26,695 bases of DNA from a virus. The notes beneath the pieces were generated by a model, which had not been told where the DNA came from, ran no database searches, and saw only the letters and a program-made list of their open reading frames with translations. Shown one piece after another: positions 5,190 through 5,558 of the stretch (its first letter is position 1; every line of letters starts with the position of its first letter). Both the position numbers and the translations under genes were made by a program. The stretch spans positions 1 to 26,695 of IMG/VR virus record IMGVR_UViG_3300027836_000035; one strand, given 5' to 3'.

Positions 5190-5558
5190 TTAGCCCTGGC
5201 GGGCTAAAAATGAACATTATCTGAGTTGAGCAGTTCACTTAGCGTTTGCACTACAAGTATTTCTACTAGCTTAGGCGGTTGTCCGGTACCTAATCATGCT
5301 GTCTTATACAACGGCGGGTCTTTATGTATACGCTAACATACATATAGCCGTGGGTTCTTCACCCTCATTTAGCCTTTGAAATTAGTTTCTTGCAAGTCAA
5401 ACGGGTTGTATAGGCATATCCCATCGTCGTCCTGTAAAGGATAGTGACTTTGCTACTCTACGCCAATTAGAGTTCCTTGCCGCCACACATCAGAGCGGAT
5501 TCAGGGCACATTAGTATCGCCTGTGCGGGCTTATTTGGCGTTAAAACGGCCTAAATTG
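5190..5558 (-). ncRNA. Putative structured non-coding RNA with two pseudoknots
   Basis: No plausible gene fills this stretch, yet it is full of exact complementary segments. Plus-strand positions: ACTCTA 5455-5460 / TAGAGT 5468-5473, whose loop ACGCCAA 5460-5466 pairs with TTGGCGT 5535-5541; ATGTAT 5324-5329 / ATACAT 5338-5343, whose loop ACGCTAA 5330-5336 pairs with TTAGCGT 5239-5245; long-range TATACAAC 5305-5312 / GTTGTATA 5405-5412; ACGGC 5311-5315 / GCCGT 5347-5351; GGGT 5352-5355 / ACCC 5361-5364; TTAGG 5271-5275 / CCTAA 5289-5293 with an inner CGG/CCG; AGTA 5256-5259 / TACT 5264-5267 (GAAA loop on the minus strand); GCACA 5506-5510 / TGTGC 5522-5526; CCGC 5480-5483 / GCGG 5495-5498; TTAGCCC 5190-5196 / GGGCTAA 5201-5207. 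The GAAA loop and the strand of both neighbouring genes favour the minus strand. It does not match tmRNA, RNase P RNA, group I/II introns or tRNAs as far as I can judge. Ends are uncertain. Confidence 0.6.

Follow-up and report, generated by a model that had tools for sequence, protein, structure and literature searches.

What lies between the segE-like GIY-YIG endonuclease gene of a T4-like phage and the late gene that follows it? The window, that is, the whole stretch of DNA analysed here, comprises 26,695 bases (positions 1-26,695 of IMG/VR record IMGVR_UViG_3300027836_000035) and belongs to a T4-like phage, with portal gp20, a baseplate hub, SbcC and SbcD homologues, a late sigma factor and a segE-like GIY-YIG endonuclease. 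A first-pass annotation had described positions 5190-5558 as an unclassified pseudoknotted RNA in an interval without a plausible gene. The interval indeed lacks a plausible gene, and homologues and covariation bear out a pseudoknotted RNA, encoded on the minus strand.

An RNA of known family that extends beyond its Rfam model

The structured noncoding RNA measures about 480 bases and runs from about 5550 to about 5072, where both ends are inferred from conservation. The locus is organized as follows.

5559..5984, minus strand: segE-like GIY-YIG endonuclease gene, upstream of the RNA (PF19835, E=3.9e-33; same neighbour in 111 loci)
5072..5550, minus strand: the structured RNA as a whole, about 480 nt (from pair counts in A1, the 50-sequence alignment)
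5390..5531, minus strand: domain 1, RF01718 Polynucleobacter-1, full model 1-141 (cmscan 70.8 bits, gathering score 37)
5057..5064, minus strand: TATAAATA, a T4-type late promoter box that lies 3' of the RNA and belongs to the next gene (58 of 61 homologous loci, where 2.7 would be expected, have ATAAATA at most 70 nt from the ATG)
4210..5049, minus strand: late gene that follows the RNA, variable among loci, its protein beginning MKILDIITE (from its sequence and the N-termini encoded at homologous loci)

When the window was compared with all 4227 Rfam families by cmscan, a single match exceeded its cut-off: the first 142 bases of the RNA (5531-5390, minus strand) matched RF01718, Polynucleobacter-1, over model positions 1-141 of 141 with 70.8 bits, the gathering cut-off being 37 bits. 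The term "unclassified" was therefore wrong, as the Infernal search of Rfam proposed in the first-pass annotation itself revealed. The RF01718 model covers only the 5' third of the RNA, which in full is 3-4 times longer; the annotated extent was likewise too short, since conserved structure passes 5190 and continues to about 5072. The motif was described from Burkholderiales and from fresh and estuarine water and graded as a likely RNA, likely cis-regulatory, and the table assigns it no function (PMC2864571); within the literature covered, a full-text search found Polynucleobacter-1 named in no further paper. The lack of a match to tmRNA, RNase P RNA, self-splicing introns or tRNAs, noted in the first-pass annotation, held: neither Rfam nor ARAGORN gave a match to tmRNA, tRNA, RNase P or group I/II introns in the window. 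We also considered cow-rumen-2 (RF02947) as a distant relative of domain 2 and rejected it, the score being 19.1 bits against a cut-off of 66, and none of ten homologous loci giving a match at E up to 3.

A conserved fold with at least three pseudoknots

The fold was derived from an alignment of 50 non-redundant phage RNAs (A1). A structure of 108 pairs with three pseudoknots left 87.3% of cells paired, as opposed to 74.3% in shuffled and 37-43% in slid controls; 77 of the 108 pairs changed on both sides, and 732 double-change cells were observed against 245 after shuffling. These pair counts use the same alignment from which the helices were picked; therefore the pseudoknots were also tested in a manner independent of single columns, where each strand was paired with its own partner or with the partner from another sequence (50 homologues, 5000 shuffles). 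The shuffles ignore ancestry; nevertheless, many independent changes are visible. The elements of the fold, in the order of transcription, are listed below.

5535..5541, minus strand: pseudoknot PKa, 5' strand (own-versus-shuffled 0/5000)
5506..5526, minus strand: hairpin P1, GCACA/UGUGC (5/5 pairs changed on both sides; 97.6% of cells paired)
5460..5466, minus strand: PKa, hairpin-loop strand (own-versus-shuffled 0/5000)
5394..5450, minus strand: helix P4 around the near-invariant CUAUCC-UUUACA-GGACGA.GAU element (99% of cells paired; 5/6 pairs changed on both sides)
5318..5349, minus strand: hairpin P7, UUAGC loop (12/12 pairs changed on both sides)
5330..5336, minus strand: pseudoknot PKb, loop strand (own-versus-shuffled test; 98% paired, helix 14)
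5308..5312, minus strand: pseudoknot PKd, 5' strand, GUUGU here and GUCAU in many others (98% paired, helix 15; compensatory changes)
5271..5293, minus strand: domain 2 motif UUAGGUACCGGACAACCGCCUAA (GGUACC....ACCGCC 3' of the anchor in 90 of 124 anchor matches)
5278..5282, minus strand: PKd, 3' strand, within the domain 2 motif (own-versus-shuffled test and pair counts)
5239..5245, minus strand: PKb, distal strand (own-versus-shuffled test and pair counts)
5216..5222, minus strand: twin repeat R1, AGAUAAU (R1 = R2 in 92/92 phage loci)
5190..5206, minus strand: hairpin P11, between R1 and R2 (84% of cells paired)
5166..5172, minus strand: twin repeat R2, AGAUAAU (R1 = R2 in 92/92 phage loci)
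5092..5112, minus strand: hairpin P13, GUUC-GAGCGAUAGCGAU-GAAC (pair counts, helices 22-23)
5073..5090, minus strand: terminal hairpin P14, probable transcript end, without a long T run (6/7 pairs changed on both sides)

Three long-range contacts had been proposed from the single sequence. Both loop pseudoknots covary: PKa (5541-5535 with 5466-5460), an exact match at 7/7 positions, had 5.62 bp with its own partner and 4.05 bp with shuffled partners, and PKb (5336-5330 with 5245-5239), also exact at 7/7, had 6.42 versus 5.26 bp, neither value being reached in any of 5000 shuffles. The third contact, an 8-base helix (5412-5405 with 5312-5305), is an exact complement at 8/8 positions in the window but finds no support in homologues (3.12 versus 2.89 bp; 134/5000), and was rejected; it competes for the same bases with a different pseudoknot, PKd (5312-5308 with 5282-5278), which is supported (0/5000). 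These results show a conserved fold with at least three pseudoknots. The argument originally offered, that such pairings are hard to explain by chance, fails on the single sequence: 7-base complementary pairs numbered seven, versus 4.2 in dinucleotide shuffles (as high in 94 of 500), 8-base pairs one versus 1.04, and the folding energy gave z = -2.75 for the minus and -1.89 for the plus strand. The first-pass annotation was thus right on two of three long-range contacts, on weak statistical grounds, and missed both the Rfam name and the 3' part.

In that 3' part, past 5190, hairpins P11 (flanked by the two repeats), P13 (GAGCG..AGCGA) and P14, which ends near 5073, stay conserved. The GAGC..AGCGA of P13 (5092-5112) is kept in nearly all copies and in most bacterial RNAs, which suggests tandem G.A pairs or a protein site.

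Carriers of the RNA in phages and bacterial islands

At least 120 viral contig stretches matched the conserved-core pattern, and GGUACC....ACCGCC lay 120-145 nt 3' of the anchor in 90 of 124 anchor matches, mostly exactly so, with variants such as GGUACA in others. RF01718 was confirmed in 10/10 sampled loci and in 18/20 records picked for size or oddity. A segE-like gene lies just upstream on the same strand in 111 loci; in most phages the RNA begins directly 3' of the segE stop codon, where read-through from segE might reach it, and the next gene is co-directional, starting about 350-410 nt beyond the anchor, while its family varies among phage loci. In two loci (L163, L166) segE ends about 1.9 kb upstream of the anchor, not about 0.1 kb, as if by an insertion between them. 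Three other loci (L108, L122, L124) hold RNA copies with differing internal deletions of very roughly 80-100 nt, either population variants or assembly errors. Among cultured phages, three query RNAs gave no blastn match, and the covariance model found RF01718 in 0/5 cultured phages with a segE homologue.

In the window, the ATG of the next gene, at 5049, follows the TATAAATA box at 5064-5057. Such a box, placed between RNA and gene, suggests a late promoter dedicated to the next gene, of which the RNA would then not be the late leader. The proteins encoded downstream of the RNA are diverse; most of their N-termini read M(K/R)(V/I)xxIIxE or a close variant, or, more loosely, M(K/R)xxxI(I/L)xE. 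We take these N-termini (MKILDIITE in the window) to resemble the capsid targeting sequence of T4 internal proteins; the position downstream of the RNA is a candidate slot for injected phage proteins.

The first-pass annotation had left open whether the RNA was independent or the 3' end of an early transcript. Independence is favoured because copies occur in unrelated gene contexts and because a 328-kb phage contig carries two copies, one at segE and the other (L257) alone between unrelated genes. L257 is preceded by a promoter-like TTGACT-18-TATAGT and followed by a perfect TTGACA-17-TATAAT for the next gene, although the number of promoter-like matches was at chance level in both regions scanned, that of L257 included. 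In a second subfamily of 22 contigs, the neighbours are varied and often on the opposite strand. Five of these loci lack an RF01718 match and were found by the domain 2 and domain 3 models that we built; thus domains 2 and 3 form the core of the RNA, with RF01718 as a replaceable 5' module.

In bacteria, genomes with an RF01718 score above cut-off numbered 3 of 399 from the order (Burkholderiales) to which a betaproteobacterial MAG belongs, and 19 of 186 (about 10%) in one Burkholderiales genus with genomes of about 2 Mb, sometimes with two copies per genome; this genus is probably Polynucleobacter. A sample of 398 genomes from across the phylum contained none. A first pattern search of genomes found nothing, and the 29 matches to a second pattern were judged to be chance. 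A divergent DUF6641 gene lies upstream of the RNA in all 24 bacterial loci examined, a small tyrosine recombinase downstream in 21, an AAA+ protein nearby in most, and the next gene is on the opposite strand in 13. The loci (L205-L251) have the layout of a compact integrative element, with DUF6641, the RNA, a variable cargo gene, the small tyrosine recombinase, two proteins of unknown nature, an AAA+ ATPase and an integrase; in some cases a second copy stands 18-21 kb away. Two of these elements, inspected from end to end, are roughly 7-10 kb long and encode a full-length integrase; their open frames showed no obvious capsid genes. PADLOC detected no defence genes among eight proteins, comprising island genes and the window's late gene. 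The island-type pattern was found in no viral contigs, and DUF6641 in 0/15 phage contigs, with a control that gave no match either. At E up to 1 the domain 2 model recovered none of the bacterial copies, and the domain 3 model touched three of them at the expected position with E of about 0.9; therefore the case for homology between phage and island RNAs in their 3' part depends chiefly on synteny with domain 1, on motifs present in both and on the R1 = R2 rule.

Twin repeats and the possible roles of the RNA

Near the 3' end of the RNA, two 7-base segments, R1 following ACUC and R2 following (A/U)UCU, are spaced by 47-60 nt. A strict pattern picked out 92 phage loci, and in all of them (92/92) R1 equals R2, although eight versions occur among them. 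For non-redundant loci the count is 49/49 against 25.4 expected, with a maximum of 35 in 10,000 shuffles that ignore ancestry. In the 328-kb contig, R differs between the two RNA copies but is matched within each, and 18 matched versions exist overall when the second subfamily and the islands are included. Among the 24 island loci, R1 and R2 agree fully in 20, differ by one base in one and by two bases in two, and one did not fit the pattern. No complement that tracks R was detected within the RNA (6.39 own versus 6.24 other), nor were exact anti-R 7-mers enriched in flanking DNA (76 observed versus 125 expected). Identical strands of this kind do not base-pair with one another, and nothing within the RNA follows R as a complement would; both segments are therefore probably read by one outside partner or kept equal through gene conversion. 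Tentatively, both might serve as binding sites for the same partner, which would differ between RNA copies.

We think it quite likely that the RNA acts in trans rather than as a leader. A cis-regulatory leader of the downstream gene, the role that the RF01718 authors rated likely (PMC2864571), would suit most phages, where a co-directional next gene starts about 350-410 nt past the anchor; it is highly unlikely, however, given the late promoter box between RNA and gene in 58/61 loci, a next gene that runs in the opposite direction in 13/24 bacterial loci and several second-subfamily phages, and a downstream family that is not constant. Most improbable of all is an untranslated remnant, or a mobile RNA element that merely spreads with the homing endonuclease gene: segE upstream in 111 loci and the internally deleted copies of L108, L122 and L124 speak for it, but the structural constraint is strong, copies without segE exist, and five cultured phages that have a segE homologue lack the RNA.

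The repeats bear on two further accounts. A guide or recognition RNA, in which R1 and R2 would single out a particular nucleic acid target, would explain why R1 equals R2 and yet varies freely among copies, even within one genome, and it accords with the small tyrosine recombinase in 21/24 of the Burkholderiales elements; we nonetheless consider it distinctly unlikely, since exact complements are not enriched nearby, the phages have no constant nuclease or recombinase, and R is purine-rich and only 7 nt long. An RNA-only homo-oligomer like ROOL and GOLLD, with R1 and R2 as equivalent interface contact sites, is also unlikely, though it merits some weight. This RNA is large, pseudoknotted and phage-borne, its protein neighbour in phages is not constant, and identical twin sites would fit a symmetric assembly; cages are formed by ROOL and GOLLD (PMC12286853). 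Yet Rfam places it in a different family, identical sequences lack mutual Watson-Crick pairing, and the complement of R is absent from the RNA.

We return to a stand-alone, trans-acting structured RNA gene of T4-like phages, about 480 nt long and with an RF01718 member as its 5' domain, a reading that we judge, from comparative sequence data, to be somewhat favoured. Such an RNA would be transcribed on its own or together with segE, would fold into a compact particle and would display one binding site twice, as R1 and R2, to a single partner, either an RNA or a sequence-reading protein. If the partner co-evolved with each RNA copy, R1 and R2 would have to change together. As a decoy or scaffold, the RNA might capture this partner or bring it together in pairs, and the related integrative elements could use the same device. 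A bolder version, which we regard as rather unlikely, is that a rigid frame of three pseudoknots holds two identical 7-base recognition segments that can be re-specified freely, which would make the RNA a specificity-changing device, whether guide or bivalent decoy, with no counterpart among described RNAs and common to lytic phages and integrated elements.

These findings complete an orphan Rfam entry of 2010 by defining the ends, the fold and the carriers of the whole RNA, and place it in many uncultured T4-like freshwater phages and in mobile islands; that R1 must equal R2 is a precise, testable rule for any functional account. In ICP1 and its PLE satellites, too, the lytic phage and the integrated element each carry a prominent and abundant noncoding RNA (PMC7567579), but those two RNAs are described as separate transcripts, while here phage and island RNAs are homologous; PLEs are satellites, whereas that the integrative elements described here are phage satellites is speculation. 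With Polynucleobacter-1, itself originally reported from Burkholderiales and from DNA of fresh water or estuaries, the likeness extends over all 141 model positions (5531-5390). The model stops after domain 1, whereas the full RNA contains three pseudoknots, each of them tested, and there are loci in which domains 2 and 3 stand without domain 1. Beyond the Rfam entry, the analysis adds the complete length, the fold, the carriers among phages and islands and the twin-repeat rule. GOLLD and ROOL are, in the account of PMC12286853 drawn on here, likewise large, ornate, pseudoknotted phage or prophage RNAs whose function is not known, and GOLLD also combines a conserved 3' part with a more variable 5' part. 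In contrast, our RNA has no Rfam match to either and is smaller than many GOLLD RNAs (800 nt or more), the window lacks tRNA genes, and twin R repeats do not figure in that account of GOLLD and ROOL. The short list of large ornate RNAs that phages keep for unknown reasons thus gains one more member.
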